Positions 539 to 14,950 of a stretch of DNA of 64,000 nucleotides are shown here, piece by piece. A model generated the notes under the pieces. That model did no database searches and was not told the origin of the DNA. It was given only the letters and a program-made list of their open reading frames with translations. Positions within the stretch are counted from its first letter, which is position 1; each line of letters starts with the position of its first letter. The stretch is from an uncultured Erysipelotrichaceae bacterium (GTDB lineage: Bacteria; Bacillota_I; Bacilli_A; RF39; UBA660), in contig CADANC010000007.1 in assembly GCA_902789225.1 (NCBI GenBank), positions 1 to 64,000 on the forward strand. The letters are read 5' to 3'. The position numbers and the translations under genes are program-made.

Positions 539-564
539 AAAATTGCTTAATTGTTTACATTTCT

Positions 565-575
565 TATGTTATAAT
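565..575 (+). promoter_or_regulatory. Extended -10 promoter of trxB-trxA
   Basis: TATGTTATAAT: a TRTG extension plus a perfect TATAAT at 570-575, with no good -35 at 17 nt. Only 15 nt separate the box from the ATG at 591, and GGTGAT (582-587) lies between, so the mRNA would begin almost at the ribosome-binding site. Confidence 0.6.
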
Positions 576-590
576 TTATTTGGTGATTAT

Positions 591-1469
591 ATGTATGATG
601 TTATTATAATAGGAAGTGGACCTGCTGGTATTAGTGCTTCTTTATATTTAAAGAGAGCTAATAATAATATTTTAGTTATTGGAAATAATAATTCTCGATT
701 AAGTCTTGCTCATAAAATAGATAATTATTATGGGTTTCCTGAAGGTATTAATGGGAAAGATTTATATAATAACGGAATAGAACAAGCAAAGAATTTAGGA
801 ATAGATGTTTTATTTGAAGAAGTATTAGGAATTAGATATGAAAATGGTTTTATTGTTAAGACCAATATTAATGAATATAATTCTAAATATATTGTTATTG
901 CGACAGGTTCAAGTAATAGTAAACCTAATATTAAAAACTTAACTAATTTAGAAGGAAAAGGAATTAGTTATTGTGCTATATGTGATGGTTTCTTCTTTAA
1001 AAATAAGGCAATTTCATTAATAGGAAATTCTAATTATGTTATTAGTGAATGTAGTGATCTTATAAATATAAGTGATAATATTAGTATTTTTACTAATGGG
1101 GAAGAAACATCTATAGAATTATCTGATTTTTTAGTAGAACATCCTAATATTAAAGTTTATAATGATAAAATAATAGAAGTGATAGGTAGTGATCATTTAG
1201 AAGGAATAAAGTTGGAAAATGGAGATGTTATTCCTGCTGATGGATTATTTGTTGCGAATGGTATTGCTAGTACTAGTAATTTAGCAATTAAATTAGGTGT
1301 ATTACTTAATAATAATTTTATTAAAGTAGATTCTAATTTTGAAACTAATGTAAAAGGTTGCTTCGCAATAGGGGATTCTATAGGTGGCTTATTACAAATA
1401 AGTAAATGTGTTAGTGATGGCGCTATTTGTGCTACATATATAAATAAATTATTAAAAGAGAAGGAGTGA
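591..1469 (+). CDS. trxB: Thioredoxin reductase-like flavoprotein with degenerate NADPH site
   Basis: 292 residues. FAD-binding GSGPAG is at 8-13, the redox pair CAIC followed by DG at 128-133, and the C-terminal FAD motif GD at 261-262. These fit the low-molecular-weight thioredoxin reductase family, which reduces thioredoxin in the cytoplasm. The second dinucleotide domain is unusual: where the family has GGGDSA there is GNSNYV (145-150), and the HRR-x3-R motif that binds the NADPH phosphate is replaced by FTNGEET (167-173). Flavin thioredoxin reductases that use ferredoxin, known from clostridia, lack the same motifs. I chose ATG 591 after GGTGAT rather than the upstream in-frame TTG at 543. 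trxA follows 5 nt downstream in the same operon, which supports the redox role. Confidence 0.85.
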   Translation: MYDVIIIGSGPAGISASLYLKRANNNILVIGNNNSRLSLAHKIDNYYGFPEGINGKDLYNNGIEQAKNLGIDVLFEEVLGIRYENGFIVKTNINEYNSKYIVIATGSSNSKPNIKNLTNLEGKGISYCAICDGFFFKNKAISLIGNSNYVISECSDLINISDNISIFTNGEETSIELSDFLVEHPNIKVYNDKIIEVIGSDHLEGIKLENGDVIPADGLFVANGIASTSNLAIKLGVLLNNNFIKVDSNFETNVKGCFAIGDSIGGLLQISKCVSDGAICATYINKLLKEKE

Positions 1470-1474
1470 AATAT

Positions 1475-1771
1475 ATGATTTTAGATGATAATAATTTTAA
1501 AAATGAAGTAGAAGATAGTAAAGGAATAGTTTTTGTAGATTTTTATGCTGATTGGTGTGGTCCTTGCAAAATGATGTCACCAATTGTTGATGAAATGTCT
1601 AAAGAAGTAGATATCAAAGTAGTTAAAGTTAATGTTGATAATGCAGTTGAAGTTGCTAAAAAATATGGAATTATAAGTATTCCTACATTTATAGTTTTTA
1701 AAGATGGGAAAGAATATAAGAAACATATTGGTATGTGTGAGAAGGATCGTTTGCTTGAATTAATTAAGTAA
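1475..1771 (+). CDS. trxA: Thioredoxin
   Basis: 98 residues, close to the usual thioredoxin length. The active site WCGPC is at residues 27-31 and the conserved cis-proline (IPT) at 70. It is a cytoplasmic dithiol carrier for ribonucleotide reductase, peroxidases and other disulfide-forming enzymes. The ATG at 1475 has AAGGAG 8 nt upstream; an in-frame GTG at 1466 lies inside that ribosome-binding site and is rejected. Its position directly behind the reductase gene suggests the two are a working pair. Confidence 0.95.
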   Translation: MILDDNNFKNEVEDSKGIVFVDFYADWCGPCKMMSPIVDEMSKEVDIKVVKVNVDNAVEVAKKYGIISIPTFIVFKDGKEYKKHIGMCEKDRLLELIK

Positions 1772-1773
1772 CA

Positions 1774-1802
1774 TTGATTTTTTTCTAGTTTTATGATATA
1801 AT
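1774..1802 (+). promoter_or_regulatory. Promoter of the 1829 gene
   Basis: TTGATT (1774-1779), 17 nt, then TATAAT (1797-1802) with a TATG extension. AAGGGGG follows before the ATG at 1829. Confidence 0.7.
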
Positions 1803-1828
1803 AACCGTGTTTTAAGGGGGTATATTAT

Positions 1829-2308
1829 ATGAATAAAGCATATGACGTATATAACTTAGATGAAGATCTTGATGATATTCTAGAAGATATAGCAAATGAA
1901 TATGATGAACCAATTCCATTTATTAGAGAGTGTTATGAATGGTTAATTGATCGTGAAGGATTTCTTGACTATATAAAAAGAAGTGATGATGGATTATTCT
2001 ATTCTTGTTTATTTGATTTAGTTTCTAGAAGAGTATTAGCTGAAAATAAAATTGCAAAAGCTTTGATTGATGATGAAATTTGTGGAAGTAAGACAGATGA
2101 TTTATATGAATACTATAGTATTGAAACTATTGAAGAATCAGTTGATAATTCTATTTATAATAGTTATGGTTTGGATGCTATAGATTATTTGACTCCTAAA
2201 TTTCAAAAAAAGTTAGGTTTTGACAGAGATAGATTAACATATGAAGAATTTGGAACAGCTAGAGGTAAAAGAGTTTTATTTAAAGGTGGAAAGCCAAAAG
2301 ATGAATAA
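1829..2308 (+). CDS. Acidic cytosolic protein of unknown function
   Basis: 159 residues, strongly acidic in the first 30 (runs of DED and EDI), with no signal peptide or membrane segment. I recognise no family. It has its own consensus promoter, a strong AAGGGGG ribosome-binding site 8 nt before the ATG, and a terminator directly after the stop, so it is a single-gene transcript. The C-terminus turns basic (RGKRVLFKGGKPKDE). Coding is secure; function is not assigned. Confidence 0.85.
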   Translation: MNKAYDVYNLDEDLDDILEDIANEYDEPIPFIRECYEWLIDREGFLDYIKRSDDGLFYSCLFDLVSRRVLAENKIAKALIDDEICGSKTDDLYEYYSIETIEESVDNSIYNSYGLDAIDYLTPKFQKKLGFDRDRLTYEEFGTARGKRVLFKGGKPKDE

Positions 2309-2327
2309 GCAGAGCAATCTGCTTTTT
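2305..2327 (+). terminator. Intrinsic terminator
   Basis: GCAGA-GCAA-TCTGC hairpin followed by seven T, directly after the stop of the 1829 gene. Confidence 0.75.
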
Positions 2328-2375
2328 TTATTTTTATTTTTGTCATTTTTATGATATATTTTATTTGGTGATAAT

Positions 2376-4139
2376 ATGAATAATTTTTTTACTAATATTA
2401 GACATTTCTTTGGAAATATATTTAGGAAAGAAGATAATGAACCTTGGTTAGGCTATTATTCTAAAGAAGATAGAACAATACAGTTTACTAGAAAAAATAT
2501 CTATGAATACTTAGAAGATAGTGTAAAAAAGAGTGATATGGACTTTATTGCTTTAAATTATTTTGGTACTAAGATTAATTATGATGATTTCTTCAAATAT
2601 ATTAATTTAACTGCAAGAGCATTAAAAAGATTTGGAGTAGGTGAAGGTGATATTGTAAGTATTTGTATGCCTAATATGCCTGAAGCTATTTATATTTTCT
2701 ATGCTTGTAATAAAATTGGTGCTGTAGCAGATATGATTCATCCTCTTAGTAGCCCTGATCAATTGAAATTCTACTTAAGTGAGAGTAATTCTAAATTACT
2801 ATTCTTAGTTGATTTTGATTATGAAAAGATGAATGAAGTAATTGAAGCCAGTACTGTTCAAAATACTGTTCTTATAAGTCCTAAAGAAAGTATGCCTGCT
2901 GCACTTGCAATAGGTTATACTTTGACACGTGATTTAAAAACTAAAAGACCTCCAAAAGATGATGAAAACTATTATAAGTGGAAAGAGTTCTTAAGATTTG
3001 GCTTTGATTATAAAGAACCTATTAAATCTAGTATGAAATGTAATGATTTAGCATTAATTCTACATAGTGGTGGAACTACTGGTTCTCCTAAAGGAATTAT
3101 GATTTCTAATTATCAATTTAACGCAGAGATGATGCAAGATTGTGTTAATGTTTATGATGTTAGACCGGGAGATAAAATTTTAACTATATTACCAATATTC
3201 CATGGCTTTGGTTTATGTGTATGTGTACATACTCCTTTATGTTTAAGGGTTGAAACTATATTGATGCCAGAATTTGAAATGGGTAGATTTGTTAGTATTA
3301 TGAAACATGATAAGCCTAATGTAATGTTAGGGGTTCCTACAATGTGGGAAGCTATGATGAGTAGTCCTAAATTCAAGAATATTGATTTAAGTCAATTTAA
3401 GTATTTAATTAGTGGAGGAGACTCTTTGCCTGTAGCGATGGAAGTTAAATTTAATGATTTTCTTCATCAACATGGATGCCATATTAATGTTATGAAGGGT
3501 TATGGTATGACAGAATCTGTTGCTGCTACATGTTATACATTTCCTGGAACAAACGAATTAGGTTCTATTGGTATTCCTATGGTTGGAAATGTATATAAGA
3601 TTTGTGACATTGAAACTGGAAAAGAATTACCTCTTGGTGTAGAAGGGGAGATTTGTGTAACAGGACCTACATTAATGATGGGTTATCTAAATAATGAAAA
3701 AGAAACTAATAAGGTTCTAAAACGTGATAAGAGTGGAAGATTATGGTTACATACTGGAGATATTGGTTATATTTCTCCTAATGGATGTGTTTATTATACT
3801 CAAAGATTAAAAAGAATGATTGTTGTTTCTGGATTTAATGTTTATCCTTCACAAATAGAAGAAGTTGTAGCAAGTCATCCTGATGTTAAAGCATGTACTG
3901 TTATAGGTATTCCTCATAAATATAAAATGCATGTTCCTAAAGCATTTATTGTTTTAAGAGATGATTGTGAGAAGAGTGAGATAAGAGTTAGACATGAGAT
4001 TAAAGAAATTTGTAAACAAAAATTATCTGTATATTCACAACCTAAAGAATATGAATTTAGAGACAGTTTACCTAAGACTTTAATGAATAAAGTTGATTAT
4101 AAAAAATTAGAAGCTGAACAAAATCAAAAGGAAGTATAA
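2376..4139 (+). CDS. AMP-forming acyl-CoA synthetase
   Basis: 587 residues, ANL superfamily. The phosphate-binding loop LHSGGTTGSPKG is near residues 230-241, YGMTES near 376-381, the hinge region with RLKRMIVVSGFNVYPSQ follows, and PKTLMNKVDYKK near the C-terminus carries the catalytic lysine. Such enzymes activate a carboxylic acid (usually a fatty acid) with ATP and join it to CoA. Size and motifs suggest a medium- or long-chain substrate, but specificity cannot be read from sequence. ATG 2376 follows GGTGAT with a TATATT box 15 nt upstream. It forms a single-gene unit between two terminators. Confidence 0.9.
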   Translation: MNNFFTNIRHFFGNIFRKEDNEPWLGYYSKEDRTIQFTRKNIYEYLEDSVKKSDMDFIALNYFGTKINYDDFFKYINLTARALKRFGVGEGDIVSICMPNMPEAIYIFYACNKIGAVADMIHPLSSPDQLKFYLSESNSKLLFLVDFDYEKMNEVIEASTVQNTVLISPKESMPAALAIGYTLTRDLKTKRPPKDDENYYKWKEFLRFGFDYKEPIKSSMKCNDLALILHSGGTTGSPKGIMISNYQFNAEMMQDCVNVYDVRPGDKILTILPIFHGFGLCVCVHTPLCLRVETILMPEFEMGRFVSIMKHDKPNVMLGVPTMWEAMMSSPKFKNIDLSQFKYLISGGDSLPVAMEVKFNDFLHQHGCHINVMKGYGMTESVAATCYTFPGTNELGSIGIPMVGNVYKICDIETGKELPLGVEGEICVTGPTLMMGYLNNEKETNKVLKRDKSGRLWLHTGDIGYISPNGCVYYTQRLKRMIVVSGFNVYPSQIEEVVASHPDVKACTVIGIPHKYKMHVPKAFIVLRDDCEKSEIRVRHEIKEICKQKLSVYSQPKEYEFRDSLPKTLMNKVDYKKLEAEQNQKEV

Positions 4140-4151
4140 ACTTCCTTTTTG
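4127..4151 (+). terminator. Intrinsic terminator
   Basis: GGAAGT-ATAA-ACTTCC then five T; the stop codon of the acyl-CoA synthetase lies in the loop. Confidence 0.8.
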
Positions 4152-4193
4152 TAATGCGTAAATTACTATTATTTTGTATAATATTATCTATAT

Positions 4194-4268
4194 GCAACTG
4201 AAAGTTTGCAAAATTTCCAACTAAAGTGTATAGATTGCAACTACAAATTAATGTAAAATTTTAGTTAC
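4194..4268 (+). promoter_or_regulatory. Candidate autoregulatory operator of the XRE regulator
   Basis: AACT-type half-sites recur: GCAACTGAAAGTTTGC (4194-4209), CCAACTAAAGT, and GCAACTA facing TAGTTAC about 18 nt apart near 4237-4268. A TTGCAA-17-TATAGA promoter (4206-4234) is embedded among them. Repeated operators before an XRE gene usually mean self-control; this is inference. Confidence 0.4.
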
Positions 4269-4286
4269 AAAGAGGAGGAAAATGGA

Positions 4287-5945
4287 ATGAAATTTGGAGA
4301 CAAATTAATAATTCTTAGAAAAAAGAATGGCTTAAGCCAAGAAGAATTAGCTGAGAAGCTGGGGGTATCAAGACAAAGTGTTTCAAAATGGGAAAGTAAT
4401 AATACTTATCCTGAAACAGATAAAATAGTTCAAATATGTAACTTATTTGATTGTTCTATGGATGATCTAATTAATGATAAAGTTACTGATGTTGAAGGAT
4501 CTCTTAGAAAAAACAAAAATAATTTTAACGAAGTATGGGATTCATTATTAGAATTTATTACTAAATCTATTAATATGTTTTCTCATATGAAATTCACAAC
4601 TGGTTTAAAATGTGTTATTGAAATGTTTATTATTGCATTTCTATTATGGTTAGTAGGTTTAGCAGTATGTGGTATTAGTAGTAATATAATTGCTAATTTA
4701 TTTAGTTTCTTTGGAACTAGAACTACTTCTATTATTGAAAATGTTTTAAGTGGTATATTTAACATATTATGGTTTGTGATTGCTGTAATTACGTTAGTTC
4801 ATACTTTTAAAATTAGATATTTAAACTATTATGATGATTCTGAAAATAAAGATGTAGAAAAATCTGAATCTAATACTAAAAATAATAAATCTAGTGAAAA
4901 CAAAGATGAAAATAGTAAATTGAATGTATCTAGTGAAGAAAAGACTATAAAAGATGAGAAAGACAGACCATTTGCTTTCTTAAGTGTTTTATCTAAAATA
5001 GTATTATTCTTTCTTAAATTTATTGTTTTTTGGATTGCTTTTAGTTCTATATTTGTACTTATTGGTTTAGTAATTAGTTTTGTTATTTCTTTAGCATTTA
5101 TTCCAACTAATATAATTTTTGTTGGTAGTACTTTAGCTTTAGGATCTGGAGTAAGTATTGCAGTATTATTCTTACTATTATGTATTTACTTTATTATCTC
5201 TAGAAAAGTAAATGTTAAAGCATTTATTATTACTTTTATTACTTCTTTAATTATTTTTGGTGTAGGTATTGGAATTTGTGGTTTATCTATTAAAAATTTT
5301 GATATTATTGAGAAAAATGAAAGTAAAAATCTTACTGTTGAAAAAATAACTATTCCTGTACAAGATGATTTAACAATTTTAAGTGGAGATTTATATGAAT
5401 ATAATTATGTAATTGATGATACTTTAGCTGATGATTCAATTGAAATAGAAGCTTTATACAATCATGATATTAAACAAATAGATACTAAATTAGTTGAAGA
5501 AAATAAATTGAATTTATATAAGATTCATGGTGATTTTAATAATGATTATAAAAAGAATTATAAGTTATTTATAGAAGATTTAAAAAATAATAAAATTGAT
5601 TTAGATCACTTAGATAGTAGTATTAATGGTTTGACTATTAGAGCTAATTCTAAAAATATAAATAAATTAATTTCTAATCTAGAAAAAGTATATTTATTAG
5701 AAAAAGAGAATAATGGAAATACTATTAAAGTAATTCGTCATAGAGATAAGGTTGAAATTATAAATGGTAGATTTGTTGAATATGATGCTAGAAAAGATGA
5801 ATTAATTTATATGGAAAATGCTCCTAAAGATTATAAGTGTTCACGTAGTGTTAGAAAAGATACATGGGGAGAATATATACAATATGAATGCTCTACACCT
5901 TATGATTATTATGATTATGAAGACTTTGAAGAGGATTACGATTAG
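4287..5945 (+). CDS. XRE-family regulator with membrane and extracellular domains
   Basis: 552 residues. Residues 4-64 form a canonical Cro/CI helix-turn-helix (LSQEELAEKLGVSRQSVSKW). Two hydrophobic segments follow at about 112-170, then a charged lysine/asparagine-rich loop (185-225), then four or so further segments at about 228-335. The last 215 residues are a soluble, acidic domain likely outside the cell, ending in a tyrosine/aspartate-rich tail. This suggests a one-component sensor that carries its DNA-binding head on a membrane protein. GAGGAGG lies 8 nt before the ATG. Repeated AACT motifs upstream fit autoregulation. Ligand and targets are unknown. Confidence 0.85.
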   Translation: MKFGDKLIILRKKNGLSQEELAEKLGVSRQSVSKWESNNTYPETDKIVQICNLFDCSMDDLINDKVTDVEGSLRKNKNNFNEVWDSLLEFITKSINMFSHMKFTTGLKCVIEMFIIAFLLWLVGLAVCGISSNIIANLFSFFGTRTTSIIENVLSGIFNILWFVIAVITLVHTFKIRYLNYYDDSENKDVEKSESNTKNNKSSENKDENSKLNVSSEEKTIKDEKDRPFAFLSVLSKIVLFFLKFIVFWIAFSSIFVLIGLVISFVISLAFIPTNIIFVGSTLALGSGVSIAVLFLLLCIYFIISRKVNVKAFIITFITSLIIFGVGIGICGLSIKNFDIIEKNESKNLTVEKITIPVQDDLTILSGDLYEYNYVIDDTLADDSIEIEALYNHDIKQIDTKLVEENKLNLYKIHGDFNNDYKKNYKLFIEDLKNNKIDLDHLDSSINGLTIRANSKNINKLISNLEKVYLLEKENNGNTIKVIRHRDKVEIINGRFVEYDARKDELIYMENAPKDYKCSRSVRKDTWGEYIQYECSTPYDYYDYEDFEEDYD

Positions 5946-5965
5946 TAATCTTCTTTATTTTTTGG
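5933..5965 (+). terminator. Probable terminator
   Basis: GATTAC-GATTA-GTAATC at the end of the XRE gene, then TTCTTTATTTTTT. The T-run is interrupted, so it may be leaky. Confidence 0.5.
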
Positions 5966-5989
5966 TATAATTATGTTGGAAGTGGTTTT

Positions 5990-6583
5990 ATGAACTATGA
6001 TTTAGAAATGCAAAAACAAATTAAAGACATAATTCCTGGAACTAAGTTATTGTTACAAGTTTGTTGCGCTCCATGCTCAAGTGCTTGTATAGAAAAACTT
6101 GCTTCAGTATTTCAAATAAATATTTTATATTATAATCCTAATATTACTGATGAAGATGAATATAATAAAAGATATGATGAATTAAAAAGATTTATTTCTT
6201 TAATTGATACTGAATATGAGATAAAGATTATTCCTTGCAAATATGATCCTGACTCATTCTTTGAAATGAGTAGGGGACTAGAGAAAGAGCCTGAACGAGG
6301 AAAAAGATGTTATAAGTGCTATAAATTAAGATTAGAAGAGACTGCTAGAGTAGCAAGTGAAATGGATATTCCTTATTTTTGTACTACTTTAACTTTAAGT
6401 CCTTATAAGAATGCTATTTGGTTAAATGAAATAGGGGAGGATCTTAATAAAGAATATAAATCTACATATTTATATAGTGATTTTAAAAAGAGAAATGGTT
6501 ATAAAAGAAGTATAGAATTATCTAGCAAATATAATTTATATAGACAAGATTATTGCGGATGTATTTATTCTAAAAGAAGCTAA
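5990..6583 (+). CDS. queH: Epoxyqueuosine reductase QueH
   Basis: 197 residues, the normal length of the QueH (DUF208) family, which performs the last step of queuosine synthesis by reducing epoxyqueuosine in tRNA. Visible hallmarks: VCCAPCSSAC near 24-33, RCYKCYKLR near 105-112, FCTTLTLSPYKN in the middle and DYCGC near the C-terminus. These cysteines hold an iron-sulfur cluster and a second metal in the family. The gene stands alone, with no other queuosine genes in the window, as is common when the precursor is salvaged. A TATAAT box (5966-5971) lies 18 nt before the ATG. Confidence 0.93.
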   Translation: MNYDLEMQKQIKDIIPGTKLLLQVCCAPCSSACIEKLASVFQINILYYNPNITDEDEYNKRYDELKRFISLIDTEYEIKIIPCKYDPDSFFEMSRGLEKEPERGKRCYKCYKLRLEETARVASEMDIPYFCTTLTLSPYKNAIWLNEIGEDLNKEYKSTYLYSDFKKRNGYKRSIELSSKYNLYRQDYCGCIYSKRS

Positions 6584-6611
6584 TTTCTTTTTTTTATAAG
6601 GAGATGATATT

Positions 6612-7502
6612 GTGAAGAAGAAAACTGTTAAAAACTTACAAATTTTTGGAACAGTTATAGCTTTAACAATATCATCTTTTACTATTAATAAAAATATTTC
6701 AAGTTCAACAGCTGAGTTTAATAGAAGTGTTGTTTTTGAACAAAATATAGATGACTTAAAAGAATATGTATTACAGGGTTTATGCAAAGTAGATGATAAT
6801 TATTGTATTTCTGCATATAGTTATAACCGTATTAATAATTCAATAATATATATTTTTGATAAAGATTTAAAACATTATAGAATAAAAGAATTAGATACTA
6901 ATTCACATGTAGGTGGAATAACTTATGATCCTTTGAATGAAAATGTTTGGATAACTGATACTGAAGGAACTATATCTGCTTATTCTAAAGATGAATTATT
7001 AGGATCTAATGATAAATTAAGAGCTAAATATAAAAAAATATATGTTGGTGATGAATTAGATAATTGTTTTGGAATGCGTTCTGTTGCGTTTATTACTTAT
7101 TATGATAATAAACTTTATTTAGGTAATTATAATAGTAGAGATAATAGTTTAATAAAAGAATATAGTTTATATGATAATGGAATGATTGATAGAAGAAGTT
7201 ATAATAAATATTATGTTTCTGATTATATACAGGGTATTACATTTTACGAAGATGAAAAAAATAAATATTTAATTACATCTTCTTCATATGGTAGATTATT
7301 GAATTCTAAATTAAGAATATATAAATTTAATGGTTTAAAAAAAGTGGAGGAATTAAATACTAAGGCAATGATGGAAGAAATAATTATTGATGATGATAGA
7401 TTAATTACTTTATATGAATCTAATGCTAGAATATATAGTGATAATAGAGACGCTAATGACATTGTTATTTCTAATATAAATAAAATACTTACAAAAAGGT
7501 AA
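6612..7502 (+). CDS. Exported protein of unknown function, possible beta-propeller
   Basis: 296 residues starting at GTG 6612 after AAGGAG; the ATG at 6604 is out of frame. Residues 5-25 form a hydrophobic signal or anchor after KKKTVK. The mature part has repeating short beta-type stretches with NVWITDTEG, NKLYLGNYN and KYLITSSSYGRLL, resembling blades of a propeller such as an NHL or SMP-30 fold. I cannot name the family. It sits 28 nt after queH and 33 nt before murC, but no shared function is evident. Confidence 0.8.
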   Translation: MKKKTVKNLQIFGTVIALTISSFTINKNISSSTAEFNRSVVFEQNIDDLKEYVLQGLCKVDDNYCISAYSYNRINNSIIYIFDKDLKHYRIKELDTNSHVGGITYDPLNENVWITDTEGTISAYSKDELLGSNDKLRAKYKKIYVGDELDNCFGMRSVAFITYYDNKLYLGNYNSRDNSLIKEYSLYDNGMIDRRSYNKYYVSDYIQGITFYEDEKNKYLITSSSYGRLLNSKLRIYKFNGLKKVEELNTKAMMEEIIIDDDRLITLYESNARIYSDNRDANDIVISNINKILTKR

Positions 7503-7535
7503 TTATTTGATATACTAATTTTAGAAGGTGATTTA

Positions 7536-8840
7536 ATGAAATATTATTGTATTGGTATTAAGGGTAGTGGTATGAGTACTCTTGCTCAAATATTATTTGA
7601 TCTTGGTAATGAAGTATCTGGTTATGATGATGCTCAAGGATATAAGTTTACTCAAGATGGTTTAGATTCTCGTGGTATAAAAATTTATTATGGACATGAT
7701 CATGATTTAGATAAAGATACTATTGTTACTTATAGTGTTGCTTTTAGTGCTGATCATCCTGAGATGAAAAGAGTTAAAGAAATGGGACTTACTATAAAGC
7801 CATATGCTGAAATTATGGGTGATGTAGTTGATATGTTTTCTACTATTGGAGTTTCTGGTACTCATGGTAAAACTACTACTAGTTCTATAATTAGACATAT
7901 TTTAGAAGATAGTGTTGGTTGTAACTATTTCATTGGAGCAGGAGATGGAATGGCTACTAATGATAATGAATATTATGTTGTAGAAAGTGATGAGTTTAAT
8001 AGACATTTCTTATATTATCATCCTAGATATTCAATTATTACTAATATTGAAGAAGAACATATGGAAATATATAGTGATATTGATGATATTAGAAATTGTT
8101 TTGAACAATTTGCTAATCAAACTAAAGAATTAGTTATTGCAAATGGTGATAACGAACAAGTTAGAAAAATTAATTTTAAGACTGATGTATTATTCTATGG
8201 ATTTAATGATGATAATGATATAGTTATTAAAGATTTATTACTTGATAGTGATAGTTCTAAATTTAGAGTTGTTTTTAAGGGAGAAGATTTAGGTAAGTTT
8301 GAGATTCCTTTGTTTGGTAAACACATGGTTATGAATAGTGTTGCTGCTATAGGTATATGTCATCATATTGGAATTGATATGGATATTATTAGAAAAGCTT
8401 TAAGTTCATTTAAGAATGCTAAGAAAAGATTTGAAATTACTAATATAGGAGATACTGTTATTATTGACGATTATGCTCATCATCCAACAGAAATCAAAGC
8501 TACTTTAGAAGCTGTTCGTCAAAAATATCCTGAAAGAAAAATTGTAGCAGTATTTAGACCAAATACTTATTCTAGAACAAAAGATTTTACTAAAGAATTT
8601 ATTGATGCTTTAGAAGTAGCAGATAAAGTATATATGACTGAAATACTTGCTAATAGAGAAAAACAAGAAGATTATCCTGGAGTAGGCTCTCATATGATTC
8701 TTGATGAAATACCTGGTGGTGAAATGATTGAAGAAGAAACTATTTCTAATTTAGATAAAGAAATTGGAAATGTAGTTATATTTATGGGATGTGCTGATAA
8801 TTCTCATCTAATTGAAGGATTTGAAAATCTTCTTAAATAG
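7536..8840 (+). CDS. murC: UDP-N-acetylmuramate--L-alanine ligase MurC
   Basis: 434 residues. Joins L-alanine to UDP-MurNAc, the first step of the peptidoglycan stem peptide, in the cytoplasm. The N-terminal Rossmann motif is GIKGSGMS (residues 7-14), the ATP-binding motif GTHGKTTT is near 109-116, and DDYAHHPTE, typical of MurC, is in the last third. AAGGTGAT precedes the ATG and a TATACT box lies 19 nt upstream. Presence of MurC shows the organism builds a wall, unlike true mollicutes. A strong terminator follows. Confidence 0.95.
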   Translation: MKYYCIGIKGSGMSTLAQILFDLGNEVSGYDDAQGYKFTQDGLDSRGIKIYYGHDHDLDKDTIVTYSVAFSADHPEMKRVKEMGLTIKPYAEIMGDVVDMFSTIGVSGTHGKTTTSSIIRHILEDSVGCNYFIGAGDGMATNDNEYYVVESDEFNRHFLYYHPRYSIITNIEEEHMEIYSDIDDIRNCFEQFANQTKELVIANGDNEQVRKINFKTDVLFYGFNDDNDIVIKDLLLDSDSSKFRVVFKGEDLGKFEIPLFGKHMVMNSVAAIGICHHIGIDMDIIRKALSSFKNAKKRFEITNIGDTVIIDDYAHHPTEIKATLEAVRQKYPERKIVAVFRPNTYSRTKDFTKEFIDALEVADKVYMTEILANREKQEDYPGVGSHMILDEIPGGEMIEEETISNLDKEIGNVVIFMGCADNSHLIEGFENLLK

Positions 8841-8853
8841 TTAATAAGAAATA

Positions 8854-8878
8854 AAGAACTTTATATAGTTCTTTTTTC
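8854..8878 (+). terminator. Intrinsic terminator of murC
   Basis: AAGAACT-TTATAT-AGTTCTT with a six-T run. The next promoter (TTGCAC at 8879) begins at once. Confidence 0.85.
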
Positions 8879-8907
8879 TTGCACATTATTTAGCAATTTG
8901 TTATAAT
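8879..8907 (+). promoter_or_regulatory. tRNA-Glu promoter
   Basis: TTGCAC (8879-8884), 17 nt, TATAAT (8902-8907) with a TG one base before the box; the tRNA begins 14 nt later. Confidence 0.8.
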
Positions 8908-8920
8908 TATTGTGTTATAT

Positions 8921-8997
8921 GACCTGTTGGTGAAGTGGTTTAACACGCTGCCCTCTCAAGGCAGTATTCATGGGTTCGAAACCCATACAGGTTACCA
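8921..8997 (+). tRNA. tRNA-Glu (CTC)
   Basis: 77 nt with encoded CCA. Acceptor GACCTGT pairs with ACAGGTT, the first pair being G-T. The anticodon stem CTGCC/GGCAG encloses loop CTCTCAA, so the anticodon is CTC (codon GAG). T-arm ATGGG/CCCAT. The layout matches Bacillota tRNA-Glu. It has its own promoter and terminator. Confidence 0.92.
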
Positions 8998-9008
8998 AAT
9001 AAAAAATA

Positions 9009-9033
9009 CAAGGTTTATTTAAACCTTGTTTTT
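9009..9033 (+). terminator. Terminator after tRNA-Glu
   Basis: CAAGGTTT-ATTT-AAACCTTG followed by five T. Confidence 0.85.
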
Positions 9034-9051
9034 GTTTTGTTTTGTTTCTTT

Positions 9052-9483
9052 TTATTCTGTTTCTATTGTATTATCATCTATGTACCATAATTTTTTACTA
9101 TTAATTCTTTTTTCTATTTCTTTTATAAATTTTGAATCTTCATATAAGAAATATACTTTATTCTTTTTATATGTGACTTTATATGCATAATTTCTATCAT
9201 CTGATGTGATTGATAGATTATTTTCTTCTTCTAATTGATTTAATAGTTTATCATCTACTGGTTCTTTTAGTTTTCCTTTTTTATAAGTTATTTCATCTCC
9301 ATCTTTATCAAATTTTGTTATTAGATATTTTTTATCTGAAATTTTTACTTTATTTGATACTTTATTATGAATATATTGTGGTTCTATTATTATTGTATAC
9401 TGTTCTTTACTTAGTGTTATTGATAGAACTGTTATAATTATAATTATTATAATCGATATAATAATAACTTTCTTTTTATTCAT
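9052..9483 (-). CDS. Single-pass membrane-anchored protein, unknown
   Basis: 143 residues: a short MNKKK start, an isoleucine-rich transmembrane segment (6-24), and a lysine-rich soluble part presumably outside the cell. GGTGAT lies 5 nt before the ATG. It is one of three minus-strand genes on the otherwise plus-strand left side. I recognise no family. An antisense frame at 9210-9437 is a hydrophobic shadow of this gene. Confidence 0.75.
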   Translation of the reverse strand: MNKKKVIIISIIIIIIITVLSITLSKEQYTIIIEPQYIHNKVSNKVKISDKKYLITKFDKDGDEITYKKGKLKEPVDDKLLNQLEEENNLSITSDDRNYAYKVTYKKNKVYFLYEDSKFIKEIEKRINSKKLWYIDDNTIETE

Positions 9484-9591
9484 TTATTATCACCATATTT
9501 ATATTAACATATTTGATATAAAATTCGTAGTCTTTATCTTGTAAATTTATATTTTTTATATTAAAATTTATTATAGTAGGAGTTGGTTAGT

Positions 9592-10398
9592 ATGAATAAT
9601 CAAATTAAGAAGGATATTGCTAAAGTTAAGTTTGATGATCCTAATAATAATGAACCAAGTATTGTTTATCAAAAAGTAAGTAATAAAGCAACTCCTTTAT
9701 TATTAATAGTTATTTTATTATTAGGTGGAGCTTGTTACTATTGGTATAATACTGATATTACAAGAAAAGCATATTATGAGCATCATTATAGTCCTATTAA
9801 TAGTGGAGATACTGTTGATTTGGGACTTGATTCTACATTAGTTATTCAATTATATAATATGGCAAAAACTACTGCTACTGAAGATTTTGGTAATCCTAAT
9901 TTTGATAATAATTTAAAAAGATATTTAGCTTTTAGAAATTTAAGTCATAATTCTTTTTATGAATCTAATTGTAATTTGTTTGATAATAGTATGGCTAATT
10001 TTGATTGCGTAGAAGATGATAGTTTTAGACCTGATGCATTCAAAGATACTGACTTAGCTAATATGCTTAACGTTATGTTTGGACAAAATAATGGGATAGA
10101 TCATCAAAATATTACATTAGGTGGAACTTGTTTGGGTGGATATGAGTACATTGCTAGTCGTGGTGAATATGTAAAAGGCAAATGTACTAGAGAATCATTA
10201 CTTACTGTATCAGCAGATAAGAAATTGACTAAAGCTACTAGTACTGGAGATAAGATTTATTTAACTGAAAATGTTAGATATTTTACTAATAATGGTCAAA
10301 CTAATCCTGAATCTTTGAAAGATGGAGATTATGTTTATACATTTAGATTAGATGAGAATTTTAATTATATATATGAAAGTAGAGAGTACAAGGGATAA
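9592..10398 (+). CDS. Single-pass extracellular protein, relative of the 45141 gene
   Basis: 268 residues. I start it at ATG 9592, 9 nt after AGGAG, rather than the in-frame TTG 9583 that abuts that site. A cytoplasmic head of about 32 residues precedes one transmembrane segment (about 33-52); the rest lies outside and has several cysteines that could form disulfides. Its layout and many positions match the 45141-46151 gene (LGLDSTLVIQLY against LSLDDERVVALY; GDKIYLTENV against GDKIVIKEKV; a YTFR...YES end against YTFK...FES), so the two look like distant paralogues. The MBL hydrolase gene follows 2 nt later. Confidence 0.8.
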   Translation: MNNQIKKDIAKVKFDDPNNNEPSIVYQKVSNKATPLLLIVILLLGGACYYWYNTDITRKAYYEHHYSPINSGDTVDLGLDSTLVIQLYNMAKTTATEDFGNPNFDNNLKRYLAFRNLSHNSFYESNCNLFDNSMANFDCVEDDSFRPDAFKDTDLANMLNVMFGQNNGIDHQNITLGGTCLGGYEYIASRGEYVKGKCTRESLLTVSADKKLTKATSTGDKIYLTENVRYFTNNGQTNPESLKDGDYVYTFRLDENFNYIYESREYKG

Positions 10399-10400
10399 TT

Positions 10401-10928
10401 ATGGAAGTTATTAGAGTTGTTACTGGTTTATTAGATGAAAATTGTTATATATTAAAAATTGATAATAATTGTCTAGTTGTAGATCCTGGAGATGATTATT
10501 CTAAGATTAATAAAGAAATAGGGGACTCCAAATTATTAGGTGTATTGATTACTCATTCTCATTTTGATCATATAGGTGCTTTAAGAAATTTTCTTACTAA
10601 AAAGAGTATTAAAATATTTAAAAATAGTAATGTAGAAGATAATAAAGATTATAGTATAGGTGATTTTAAATTTAGAGTATATAAAACTCCTGGTCATTCA
10701 AGTGACTCAATTAGTTTTCATTTTATTGAAGACAAATGTATGTTTGTAGGAGACTTTATTTTTAAAGAGAGTATAGGTAGATGTGATCTTCCTACAGGAA
10801 GTTTAGAAGAAATGAATAATTCTATTGAAAAATTACTTAAACTTGATGATGATATTACTTTATATACTGGACATTACGATACAACTACTTTAGGATATGA
10901 AAGAACTAATAATCCTTACTTGAATTAG
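10401..10928 (+). CDS. Metallo-beta-lactamase-fold hydrolase, glyoxalase II-like
   Basis: 175 residues, shorter than true glyoxalase II (about 250). The metal-binding motif THSHFDHIG is at 51-59, the second histidine in TPGHSSDS, the bridging aspartate in FVGDFIF, and the last histidine in YTGHYD. All ligands of a dinuclear metal site are present. The small size places it with the YcbL-like hydrolases, which cleave thioesters of small thiols; the real substrate is unknown. The start lies 2 nt behind the preceding membrane protein, in one transcript. Confidence 0.88.
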   Translation: MEVIRVVTGLLDENCYILKIDNNCLVVDPGDDYSKINKEIGDSKLLGVLITHSHFDHIGALRNFLTKKSIKIFKNSNVEDNKDYSIGDFKFRVYKTPGHSSDSISFHFIEDKCMFVGDFIFKESIGRCDLPTGSLEEMNNSIEKLLKLDDDITLYTGHYDTTTLGYERTNNPYLN

Positions 10929-10937
10929 TTCTTTTTG
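10901..10937 (+). terminator. Terminator overlapping the hydrolase 3' end
   Basis: AAGAACTAA and TTAGTTCTT (9-bp stem, 15-nt loop holding the stop codon) then a T-rich tail. Confidence 0.75.
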
Positions 10938-10971
10938 TTTGTTATAATAACCTACTAAAGAGGTTGATTCT

Positions 10972-11289
10972 ATGAAGGTTTGGACTAAAGTTAGATTAAA
11001 AGATTATAATAAAAAAGTATATTATATTAGTAGATCTTTAACTAATTATCTATATAAGTATGGGCCAATTCTAGATATTGAAAGAAAATATAATATAAGT
11101 GATGAAGATATGCATAAACTTAATCAATATAGTGCTAATAGGATAGCTGGTATTCTTATGTTATATCTTGCGAAAGACTTTAATAGAATTAATGATATAG
11201 TTAATAAGTATGATATTCCTGATGGAGATTGTAAGGAAATTATTCCAGAAATAGAGGGTTATATAAATAAAAAAAAGACTAATAAATAG
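10972..11289 (+). CDS. Small protein of unknown function
   Basis: 105 residues, basic, tyrosine-rich and mostly helical, without a membrane segment. A TATAAT box at 10943-10948 and AGAGG precede the ATG. It ends at a strong hairpin. A DNA- or RNA-binding role could be guessed from the charge, but no known motif is visible. Confidence 0.75.
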   Translation: MKVWTKVRLKDYNKKVYYISRSLTNYLYKYGPILDIERKYNISDEDMHKLNQYSANRIAGILMLYLAKDFNRINDIVNKYDIPDGDCKEIIPEIEGYINKKKTNK

Positions 11290-11298
11290 TCTTTTTCT
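11272..11298. terminator. Bidirectional terminator between convergent genes
   Basis: AAAAAGACTA-ATAAA-TAGTCTTTTT: T-runs on both strands. It serves the 10972 gene (+) and the 29-residue peptide gene (-). Confidence 0.8.
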
Positions 11299-11300
11299 TT

Positions 11301-11390
11301 TTAGATCATATAAACAATAACCCAAAAGAATCCTACAAGCATTGCAAGTGCAGCTACTGTACAAACTATTCTCATAGCAGTTTTATTCAT
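11301..11390 (-). CDS. 29-residue single-pass membrane peptide
   Basis: A short gene: MNKTAMRIV, then a hydrophobic helix (CTVAALAMLVGFFWVIVYMI in two parts) and stop. The ribosome-binding site GAGGTGA lies 7 nt before the ATG. A consensus promoter (TTGACA-17-TATAAT) stands upstream and a terminator directly downstream, so all parts of a real gene are present. Such peptides often bind or tune larger membrane proteins. Size and layout recall Prli42 or DUF4044 peptides, but I cannot assign it to either. Confidence 0.75.
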   Translation of the reverse strand: MNKTAMRIVCTVAALAMLVGFFWVIVYMI

Positions 11391-11411
11391 ACATAGTCAC
11401 CTCTAATTATC

Positions 11412-11440
11412 ATTATATATATTTTTATTATTTATGTCAA
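11412..11440 (-). promoter_or_regulatory. Consensus promoter of the 29-residue peptide
   Basis: TTGACA (11440-11435), 17 nt, TATAAT (11417-11412): a perfect match to the housekeeping sigma consensus. Confidence 0.8.
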
Positions 11441-11447
11441 TTTACAC

Positions 11448-11476
11448 TTGATTATTTTACATTCATTATTTATAAT
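11448..11476 (+). promoter_or_regulatory. Promoter of the 11497 HTH gene
   Basis: TTGATT, 17 nt, TATAAT (11471-11476), then AGGAGGG 7 nt before the ATG. Confidence 0.75.
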
Positions 11477-11496
11477 GATTATAGGAGGGTAATAAT

Positions 11497-12264
11497 ATGA
11501 AGGAATTAAATGATGTGCTTTCTGAATTAGGGATAAGTAAGGTTAGATTATCTAAGTATTTAGGTGTATCTAGACAGATGCTATATAATTATTTAGCATT
11601 GGGAGATTTAAGTAAATGGCCTAAAGAAAAAAGTGCTAAATTATTAAGTTTATTAGATGTAGATGATATTAGTGAATTAAAAGATAAAGATATTTCTGGT
11701 AAATATATTATTGAAGTTGAAAATAGATTAAATGAAGGTGTTAAAAGTCTTTCTAATAGAGATTATTCTAGTGATTTAAAATCTTTCAATAAAAAGGAAC
11801 AAGAGATTATTTCTGATATAGTTAATTTAATGAAAGAAAGACTTTCAAATGATAAGACTAAAACATCTTACAATACTTATGTTTATTTATATAATTTTTT
11901 AAATAGTATGGAAAATAATGATGAATTAAGATATATTCTAGCTTATTTTTCTAAATCATTAGGATTTACTGATCCTATGGAATTTGCTTTTAATGAAGAT
12001 AAACAATTTATATTTGAAAGTATTTTATTTAGTGCAATGACTTTATATAACGGTGGTGGAGCTTCTAAAGCTAAATTAGAATCTTCTCATAATAAATTTG
12101 TTCAAGATATCGAGAAGAAGAATGAAGAAAAGTTATCTCGTACTCAAGAATTAAATGTTGCTAAAGTACAAGCTTTAAAAGAATTAGGATTTACTGAAAT
12201 AAATGATGATAATGCTAATGAAGTATTAGAAAAGATAGCAGAGATTCAATCTAGAAAGGTATAA
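11497..12264 (+). CDS. HTH-domain protein of unknown function
   Basis: 255 residues. Residues 3-40 carry a Cro-like helix-turn-helix (ISKVRLSKYLGVSRQMLYNY). The remainder is helical and charged, with a coiled-coil-prone stretch near 200-225 (QDIEKKNEEKLSRTQELNV). No effector domain is recognisable. It is the last plus-strand gene before the terminus region, with its own promoter and terminator. A regulator or nucleoid-associated function is plausible; its closeness to the dif-like site may be chance. Confidence 0.8.
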   Translation: MKELNDVLSELGISKVRLSKYLGVSRQMLYNYLALGDLSKWPKEKSAKLLSLLDVDDISELKDKDISGKYIIEVENRLNEGVKSLSNRDYSSDLKSFNKKEQEIISDIVNLMKERLSNDKTKTSYNTYVYLYNFLNSMENNDELRYILAYFSKSLGFTDPMEFAFNEDKQFIFESILFSAMTLYNGGGASKAKLESSHNKFVQDIEKKNEEKLSRTQELNVAKVQALKELGFTEINDDNANEVLEKIAEIQSRKV

Positions 12265-12280
12265 TTACCTTTCTTTTTTT
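12253..12280 (+). terminator. Terminator of the 11497 gene
   Basis: AGAAAGGTA-TAAT-TACCTTTCT followed by a T-run; the stop lies in the loop. Confidence 0.9.
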
Positions 12281-12526: not shown

Positions 12527-12551
12527 AAAAAAGAACCTGGTTATCAGGTTC
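12527..12551 (-). terminator. Minus-strand terminator next to dif
   Basis: Stem GAACCTG/CAGGTTC with loop GTTAT; on the minus strand it is followed by six T. It would end transcripts from xerD-deoB after they have crossed the repeats and dif. Confidence 0.8.
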
Positions 12552-12567
12552 ATCTTAACTCGGATTA

Positions 12568-12595
12568 ACTTCCTATAATTGATATTATGTTAACT
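12568..12595 (+). other. dif: dif-like chromosome dimer resolution site
   Basis: 28 bp with two 11-bp half-sites around a 6-bp centre. Left half ACTTCCTATAA (XerC side), centre TTGATA, right half TTATGTTAACT (XerD side). As I recall it, the B. subtilis site has ACTTCCTAGAA and TTATGTAAACT, so each half differs by one base. The position fits: it lies in the only long intergenic stretch, at the point where dominant gene direction reverses, and 1.5 kb from xerD. XerC/XerD would act here with FtsK to resolve chromosome dimers. Confidence 0.85.
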
Positions 12596-12750
12596 TCTAT
12601 ATATTTTTATTTTGTTTTTATTATTCTCTTCTTTCTCTTCTTATGGAGTAATTTGTAAGCTAATTATCATGTTATATAAGCTAATTTAAAATAATTTTTT
12701 ATGTATGCAAATGCAAATTCTTTTTTAAAATTTAAAAATTTATTTATTAT

Positions 12751-12887
12751 CCTTATTAATATATATAATAAGGTTATATACGCGCGTAATCTTTATATTT
12801 ATATAATATAAGGATATATATACCTTATTTATATATAATAATGATATATACGCGTATAATCTACTTATTTATATAATATTATGATAG
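12751..12887. repeat. Two tandem copies of an AT-rich repeat with CGCG palindromes
   Basis: Copies begin at CCTTATT (12751 and 12823) and run through TATATACGCG (12775 and 12845), AATCT and TTATATAATAT. The period is about 70-72 bp. Each copy centres on an alternating purine-pyrimidine palindrome (ACGCGCGT, and TATACGCGTATA). Function unknown; it lies between deoB and dif. Confidence 0.75.
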
Positions 12888-12896
12888 AAGTCTTAC

Positions 12897-14060
12897 CTAC
12901 TTTAATTCATTTAAGAAAGAGGTACCGTTCTTTATTTCTGTTATTTTAAAATTATCTGCTATAGTATTTCCTATATCTGCCATTGTAGTTAATTCTGGTA
13001 GTCTTTTTGGTTCTTTGAAATTTCTTGAATATATTAATACTGGAACATTTTCTCTAGTATGACCATTTCCAGCAAATGTTGGATCACATCCATGGTCTGC
13101 TGTTATTATTAACATATCATCTATATTTAGTTTATTTAGGATTATAGGTATATTTACATCTAACTCCTCTATTGCTTTAGCATAACCTTCTATGTCCCTA
13201 TTGTGGCCATATATTTCATCAAAATCAGATAAATTTGTTATACATAATCCAGTAAAATCTTTATTCATTATTTCTACCAATTTATTTATTGCTTCTGCAT
13301 TATTTATTGCTTTTATTGATTTAGTTATACCGTTGTTTTGAAATATATCATTTACCTTCCCTATTCCAATAACATTTAGTTTTTCTTTCTCTAGTAAATT
13401 TAAAACTGTTTCTTTTTTAGGATTATTAACAAATTCTTTTCTAGCTGAAGTTAAAAATGTATATTTATTTTCTCCTGTAAATGGTCTTGCGATAATTCTT
13501 GATATTCTTATGTTTTCTTTGATAGTAAGTTCTTTTATTCTTTCACAATACTCATATAATGTCTTTATAGGTATTGTATCTTCATGAGCAGCTACTTGTA
13601 GATTTGAATCTCCTGATGTATAAACTATTAAAGATCCATAATTTCTTTCTGTATCACCTAAATCATTGATAATATCATCATTAGTACAACATATATTTCC
13701 AATTATTCTTCTTCCTGTTATATTTGATATATTTTGTAGTAATTCTTCATCAAATCCTGTAGGAAATCTTTGATATGGCTCATCTAGACTTGCTCCTACC
13801 ATTTCATAATGTCCTGATAGTGAATCTACTCCAACATTTGTTGGGTGAGCTATTGTATAGTATGCTTCTACTTTATCATCATCTGTCATACTTAATGTAT
13901 TTAGAAAGCCTATTCTTTGTAAATTTGGTATGAATAATGGGCATTTTTCATTTATATGACCTAGAGTAGATGAGCCTATACTTTCATATTTATATGCATC
14001 TTTTGATTCCCCTACTCCTAGTGAATCTAAAATCAATAGGAATATTCTTTTATATTTCAT
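12897..14060 (-). CDS. deoB: Phosphopentomutase DeoB
   Basis: 387 residues, standard length. Interconverts (deoxy)ribose 1- and 5-phosphate, linking nucleoside breakdown to the pentose phosphate pathway. The alkaline-phosphatase-type metal site shows as LILDSLGVGE (residues 9-18) and ADHGCDPTF with GHTREN (about 327-342). The ATG overlaps the xerD stop by 4 nt (ATGA), so translation is coupled. B. subtilis also places phosphopentomutase (drm) directly after xerD (ripX). deoD (48734) and tkt (50279), elsewhere in the window, serve the same pathway. Confidence 0.95.
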   Translation of the reverse strand: MKYKRIFLLILDSLGVGESKDAYKYESIGSSTLGHINEKCPLFIPNLQRIGFLNTLSMTDDDKVEAYYTIAHPTNVGVDSLSGHYEMVGASLDEPYQRFPTGFDEELLQNISNITGRRIIGNICCTNDDIINDLGDTERNYGSLIVYTSGDSNLQVAAHEDTIPIKTLYEYCERIKELTIKENIRISRIIARPFTGENKYTFLTSARKEFVNNPKKETVLNLLEKEKLNVIGIGKVNDIFQNNGITKSIKAINNAEAINKLVEIMNKDFTGLCITNLSDFDEIYGHNRDIEGYAKAIEELDVNIPIILNKLNIDDMLIITADHGCDPTFAGNGHTRENVPVLIYSRNFKEPKRLPELTTMADIGNTIADNFKITEIKNGTSFLNELK

Positions 14061-14950
14061 AAATCCTCCTTACTTCTTGGATGAAATTCATTATACTCTT
14101 CTCTTACTAATTCATCACTTACTTCTGTATATATCTTTGTTGTTGATATATCAGAGTGACCTAACATTTCTTGGACACTTCTTAAGTCTGCTCCCCTATT
14201 TATTAAATGTGTAGCGAACGAATGTCTTAGTGTATGAGGAGAAGCATCTTCATTTAGGCCTTTTTCTCTTAGCAGTTTCTTTAATATTTTGAAAAAGCCT
14301 TGTCTTGAGATTTGTTTTCCGTGATTATTTAGAAATAACTTAGTAATTGTAGGATCTTTTACTAATTCATTTCTTCTTTCTAAATATAGTTTTAAATATT
14401 TAATTGCATAATCTCCTAGAGGTACTATTCTTTCTTTAGAACCTTTTCCAAATACTATTATGGTACCTTCTAATATATCTATATCATTTAGTTCTAAATT
14501 TATTAGTTCTGATATTCTTAAGCCTGTAGCATATAGTATTTCTAACATAGCCTTATTACGATAATCTAGAGCAGATTCTAGCTTAATATCTAAAAGATTA
14601 TCTACATCTTCTATTGATAGTACTTTAGGTATTGATTTTCTCATTTTAGGTCTATCAATAAATTCAGATACATCTTTTTTTGTTATATTTAGACTAAATA
14701 GATATTTATGAAAATTTTTTATAACTGTTAAATTATGTGCTATAGTAGATGTCTTTTCTTCTGATTTTTCTTTTAGAAAGTCTTTTATTTCTTTATCAGT
14801 TATATTATTAACATTAGATATATTTCTGTTATTAAGGAATTCTTTATATATTTTTAGATCATTTTTATATGATTCTTTTGTTTTTTCAGATAATCCTTTT
14901 TCAAACATACAATATCCAATGAAATCTTCAATTGCGTCATCTATATTCAT
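14057..14950 (-). CDS. xerD: Tyrosine recombinase XerD
   Basis: 297 residues, typical Xer length. The N-terminal SAM-like core-binding domain covers 1-90 and the catalytic domain 105-290. All catalytic residues are visible: R145 (GLRISEL), K169 (FGKGSKER), H239 and R242 (HTLRH), H265 (GHSDIS) and the nucleophile Y274. It acts on dif with XerC to resolve chromosome dimers; in B. subtilis XerD also helps unload SMC near the terminus. XerD rather than XerC is supported by coupling to deoB, as in B. subtilis, and by the nearby dif-like site. A TATAAT lies 19 nt before the ATG. Confidence 0.92.
   Translation of the reverse strand: MNIDDAIEDFIGYCMFEKGLSEKTKESYKNDLKIYKEFLNNRNISNVNNITDKEIKDFLKEKSEEKTSTIAHNLTVIKNFHKYLFSLNITKKDVSEFIDRPKMRKSIPKVLSIEDVDNLLDIKLESALDYRNKAMLEILYATGLRISELINLELNDIDILEGTIIVFGKGSKERIVPLGDYAIKYLKLYLERRNELVKDPTITKLFLNNHGKQISRQGFFKILKKLLREKGLNEDASPHTLRHSFATHLINRGADLRSVQEMLGHSDISTTKIYTEVSDELVREEYNEFHPRSKEDL

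Follow-up and report, generated by a model that had tools for sequence, protein, structure and literature searches.

Evidence for a chromosomal dif site close to xerD at the replication terminus of an uncultured member of the Bacilli

We analysed a stretch of 64,000 nucleotides (the window) from an uncultured Bacilli genome and found in it a 28-bp site that almost certainly lies at the replication terminus and is the chromosomal dif of a two-recombinase XerC/XerD system (Table 1). The xerD gene lies a few kilobases from this site and reads towards it, and this is an old arrangement, present in the lineage of the window and in about a dozen other families. The adjacency of xerD, a minor clue in the initial annotation, proved more informative than anything else about the locus. 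Its occurrence across many families was unexpected, such an arrangement having been described so far for one-recombinase systems. Any circular chromosome is expected to have a dif site, which in this case fixes the terminus firmly for an uncultured group. Of greater weight than the site alone is the linkage, which makes it possible to test whether closeness of gene and site serves any function.

Read directly from the + strand, the site is ACTTCCTATAA-TTGATA-TTATGTTAACT, with two 11-bp arms flanking a 6-bp centre. It shares 24 of 28 positions with the experimentally confirmed dif of B. subtilis (ACTTCCTAGAATATATATTATGTAAACT, in the form printed in PMC3025954); one mismatch falls in each arm and two fall in the centre, which is TATATA in B. 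subtilis. The initial annotation had placed this 28-bp sequence at the same position and its half-sites one base from those of B. subtilis dif, and both statements proved exact. The 28-mer was the sole match in the window, and none was obtained in 100 dinucleotide shuffles. When up to three mismatches were allowed it was still the only match in the whole assembly; this is a 1.6-Mb metagenome assembly of 43 contigs that is 96 % complete, and the words 'unique' and 'terminus' hold for an incomplete chromosome. By homology with known dif sites, the left arm would be bound by XerC and the right arm by XerD, and recombination would take place at the site.

Table 1. Positions of dif and of neighbouring features in the window
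Feature	Position	Strand	Basis or remark
dif core site, 28 bp	12568..12595	+	Sequence, uniqueness, skew, conservation
Left arm ACTTCCTATAA, predicted XerC-binding arm	12568..12578	+	Homology with B. subtilis/E. coli dif
6-bp centre TTGATA, predicted strand-exchange region	12579..12584	+	Sequence; role inferred from known dif sites
Right arm TTATGTTAACT, predicted XerD-binding arm, facing xerD	12585..12595	+	Homology
TCT extension adjoining the XerD arm	12596..12598	+	Kept in the family, absent from other families
xerD, tyrosine recombinase reading towards dif	14057..14950	-	TIGR02225, 337.4 bits (cut-off 329.6)
deoB, phosphopentomutase, between xerD and dif	12897..14060	-	NF003766, 435 bits; TIGR01696, 416 bits
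Intrinsic-terminator-like hairpin for leftward (deoB-direction) transcripts	12533..12551	-	Beyond dif
Intrinsic-terminator-like hairpin ending rightward transcripts short of dif	12253..12274	+	
Final + strand gene before dif, 255 aa	11497..12264	+	No family match

The direction of the genes reverses at the site, as had been claimed in the initial annotation, which placed the probable replication terminus here. Open reading frames from 543 to 12264 are on the + strand with one exception (9052–9483), and from 12897 onward they are mostly on the - strand. At dif the GC skew drops from +0.30 to -0.13, and the cumulative skew of the whole contig (C7; 96,988 bp) reaches its peak at 12548, 20 bp from the site. 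The opposite switch, from -0.17 to +0.27, was found at the dnaA locus (C2:181370), and the remaining contigs sampled mostly showed one skew sign each; these readings cover all of C7, the dnaA locus and at most the initial 20 kb of 17 further readable contigs, about a quarter of the genome in all, and the letters of one more sampled contig, C8, were N. The skew extremum next to dif and the opposite switch at dnaA support the proposed location of the terminus. Around dif the skew also switched in the expected sense at 30 of 33 loci of the window's family and at 50 of 67 loci of other families. The gap holding dif had been described as the only long intergenic region; it is the longest in the window (632 bp) but not the sole long one, the next measuring 499 bp.

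Between the site and xerD lies deoB, the two genes overlapping by 4 bp. The hairpin for leftward transcripts stands beyond dif, and a xerD–deoB transcript could therefore run through the site. We rejected this hairpin as a conserved feature: it is common to the closest genomes and missing in the L020/L025 sister lineage. Positions 12760–12886, between dif and deoB, hold a pair of similar 57-bp units with motifs of the type TATACGCGCGTAATC, and related repeats occur in the sister genomes L024, L020 and L025.

The product of xerD scored above the cut-off of its equivalog model. In an alignment with E. coli XerD (1a0p; E=2e-60), its best solved relative, the catalytic residues R-K-H-R-H-Y are conserved, and the protein is 97 % identical to its counterpart in the closest named relative, RUG343, an uncultured Firmicutes metagenome assembly. 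A second recombinase is encoded on another contig (C1:14210-15130), where it adjoins topA. Its best model was XerC with 321.9 bits, slightly below the equivalog cut-off of 335, and because of this score the name XerC-like rests partly on the topA neighbourhood. An FtsK gamma domain is encoded at C3:95008 (PF09397, 85.6 bits). Since XerD, a XerC-like protein and an FtsK gamma domain are all encoded, we conclude that the genome specifies a two-recombinase system. The same 28-bp layout, a position at the terminus, two recombinases and an FtsK/SpoIIIE-type translocase are known from B. subtilis, whose dif is served by CodV (XerC) and RipX (XerD).

The E. coli XerCD/dif/FtsK system can be taken as the mechanistic model. 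By analogy with E. coli and B. subtilis, recombination would join two sister chromosomes into a dimer, and FtsK, pumping DNA towards the terminus at the division septum, would bring the two dif copies together. The FtsK gamma domain would then activate XerD on the TTATGTTAACT arm, and XerC would complete the exchange on the other arm, converting the dimer into two monomers. A motif that might orient FtsK was not found, the B. subtilis SRS GAGAAGGG and the E. coli KOPS GGGNAGGG being practically absent. The top 7-mer of four A and three G, GAAGAAG, has a skew of 212:40, but nine other 7-mers of matched composition exceed it, and we rejected GAAGAAG as an FtsK-orienting motif.

In arrangement only, the locus is like XerS/difSL of streptococci and lactococci, where a recombinase gene likewise lies near the site at the terminus, and like XerH/difH of epsilonproteobacteria, where gene and site are also linked. 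XerS/difSL comprises one 356-aa recombinase and a 31-bp site with an 11-bp centre (PMC5357621), whereas here we found two XerC/XerD-type recombinases of about 300 aa (297 and 306 aa) and a 28-bp site with a 6-bp centre. The XerS model gave 112–117 bits on both Xer proteins, against a cut-off of 267, and a XerS/difSL system was rejected. XerH/difH, with a single recombinase and a different site sequence (PMC2731167), was rejected on protein number, protein size and site layout.

The distance between xerD and dif had been noted as about 1.5 kb, and we measured 1.46 kb. Within the family of the window, 132 dif-bearing genomes had an identified XerD, and 108 of them carried xerD and dif on one contig; in the other 24 the two lay on different contigs of fragmented assemblies and could not be judged. 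In all 108 same-contig genomes dif was downstream of xerD, at a median distance of 2.2 kb (up to 5 kb in 88 and up to 10 kb in 101). Simple arithmetic gives an expectation of ~1–2 % for the proportion of genomes of this size in which a random gene would lie within 10 kb of dif. With a sample chosen by XerD instead of dif, 42 of 48 loci had a dif at 0.4–9 kb, always downstream.

We extended the count to a further 18 families of the class. Of their 78 dif-bearing genomes, 58 had xerD and dif on one contig. Gene and site were at most 10 kb apart in 44 of these 58, and these 44 genomes came from 12 families; in every one of them dif was downstream, with the XerD arm facing xerD. In four families (f11, f12, f17 and f22) dif is retained and xerD lies 51–236 kb away. 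The XerC-like gene was located 55–1150 kb from dif in near-complete genomes. A linkage test sampled at phylum level returned only the same class.

Neighbours of dif were then counted within 10 kb at about 120 loci, which had not been chosen for linkage. The commonest was xerD (74 loci, 13 families), followed by deoB (51 loci, 12 families) and by asparaginase, a PHP-domain protein, hemW, parC and others, which were named by reading their sequences. Where both flanks were long (92 loci), 58 loci had xerD and 41 had deoB; xerD occurred without deoB in 17 and deoB without xerD in none. Within the window's family, spoIIM (identified by Pfam PF01944) and xerD were each near dif at 22 of 29 loci and rarA at 20 of 29. 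On a tree of 121 XerD proteins, a quick tree with several long branches, the polarity of dif relative to xerD changed at least seven times. At least four of the changes are forced by well-supported branches, and the linkage was kept each time. In several families (e.g. at L172, L174, L183 and L196), the topoisomerase IV genes parE–parC are found across dif from xerD, no more than 10 kb from the site (census counts of 17 and 23 loci). Genes for a decatenase and a recombinase therefore stand on either side of dif, where both enzymes would be expected to work.

On balance, we think it slightly more likely than not that the linkage reflects inertia. An ancestral spoIIM–xerD–deoB block would have lain at the terminus by chance, and inversions centred on the terminus would have held its genes at a roughly constant distance from dif, so that the linkage would persist without a function. 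A spoIIM–xerD–deoB block is also known from B. subtilis, where xerD lies ~0.5 Mb from dif; unlike this, the distance in the window and in many families of the class is 1–7 kb. One ancestral arrangement predicts the identical polarity of dif and xerD in all 44 linked genomes outside the family. That spoIIM and rarA are near dif as often as xerD within the family is likewise consistent with inertia, as is the retention of dif in the four families without close linkage. Less easily accommodated are the 17 loci with xerD but without deoB, set against none of the reverse kind, and the first rank of xerD among the neighbours in 13 families, with the rest of the neighbourhood changing. The linkage has, moreover, outlived at least 4–7 polarity changes.

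These last observations would fit selection for closeness, which we regard as possible but rather unlikely. Recombinase and site would then be a co-inherited module, or a xerD gene in the late-replicating terminus would help to provide XerD at the place and time of its action on dif. The persistence of xerD without deoB, the persistence of linkage through changes of polarity and its presence in 13 families argue for such selection, and the same closeness is found in the single-recombinase systems XerS and XerH (PMC5357621, PMC2731167). Selection for closeness does not readily explain why XerD is linked and XerC is not, or how at least four families manage without close linkage, and the phylogenetic non-independence of the linked genomes was not fully removed. 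Inertia of the ancestral block is more likely than selection for gene–site closeness.

In E. coli the recombinase genes are unlinked to dif, in contrast to XerS (PMC5357621), and one review considers that a recombinase gene lying close to its site may be a hallmark of one-recombinase systems. According to a broad survey of predicted dif sites, it is mostly xerC that lies near dif, with xerD near the origin (PMC3025954). In the text of the open-licence papers searched, we found no report of xerD–dif linkage in two-recombinase Bacilli. A class-wide neighbourhood of xerD and dif in two-recombinase bacteria fits the picture of a one-recombinase hallmark poorly. We put forward only tentatively that, in a large part of the class, a two-recombinase Xer system keeps xerD and dif as a linked module under selection. 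In such a module the gene would read towards the site, usually with the XerD arm facing xerD; gene–site linkage would then not be peculiar to single-recombinase systems and may represent an intermediate stage in their evolution. As a practical use, divergent dif sites can be found by looking downstream of xerD.

A comparison with relatives revealed a conserved dif. At up to three mismatches it was found in 134 of 193 sampled genomes of the family; a reversed control pattern had no match in these 193 genomes and matched in 2 of 198 genomes of the class sample. Ten sister sequences sharing the exact 28-mer had 32 invariant columns amid diverged flanks, namely the 28-mer together with a preceding A and a following TCT; the 28-mer was the criterion by which the ten were selected, and the four extra columns were not. 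The TCT extension was clear in 101 sites of the family (position 30 is C in 65 % against a background of 9 %; 1.44 bits) and lacking in 77 sites from other families (0.15 bits), and it also distinguishes the family from B. subtilis dif. In the relatives the XerD (right) arm is nearly invariant, and the XerC (left) arm is variable.

The region is very AT-rich, with tandem repeats at 12760–12886, and similar sites occur on a few phage contigs, but with no match in shuffled sequences, a single genomic copy, a skew peak 20 bp away and a 28-mer identical across several genera amid unconserved surroundings, it is highly improbable that the 28-mer was left by an integration event or matches dif by chance in AT-rich DNA and is not a working dif.

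The dif-like sites on viral contigs (L270–L277) have an intact centre and XerD arm and mostly a different XerC arm, and at least two of these contigs are real phages with terminase and portal genes. This pattern is expected of phages that integrate through Xer, but in so large a collection a few AT-rich matches of 21–23 bases could be due to chance. Contig ends at dif, seen in several genomes, were rejected as a sign of integrated elements, four having been observed within 600 bp in the class sample against 2.2 expected. One genome of the family (G119; three contigs, 91 % complete) lacked a good match to XerC/XerD, the best having an E of 5e-9, and at the threshold used it also yielded no dif, which points to a possible loss of the Xer/dif system. 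In a Bacilli clade comprising L064, L070, L075 and L078, the XerC arm is strongly changed (e.g. TTTTAAAATAA) with the centre and the XerD arm intact, and dif is at its usual place, 1.1–1.7 kb downstream of xerD.
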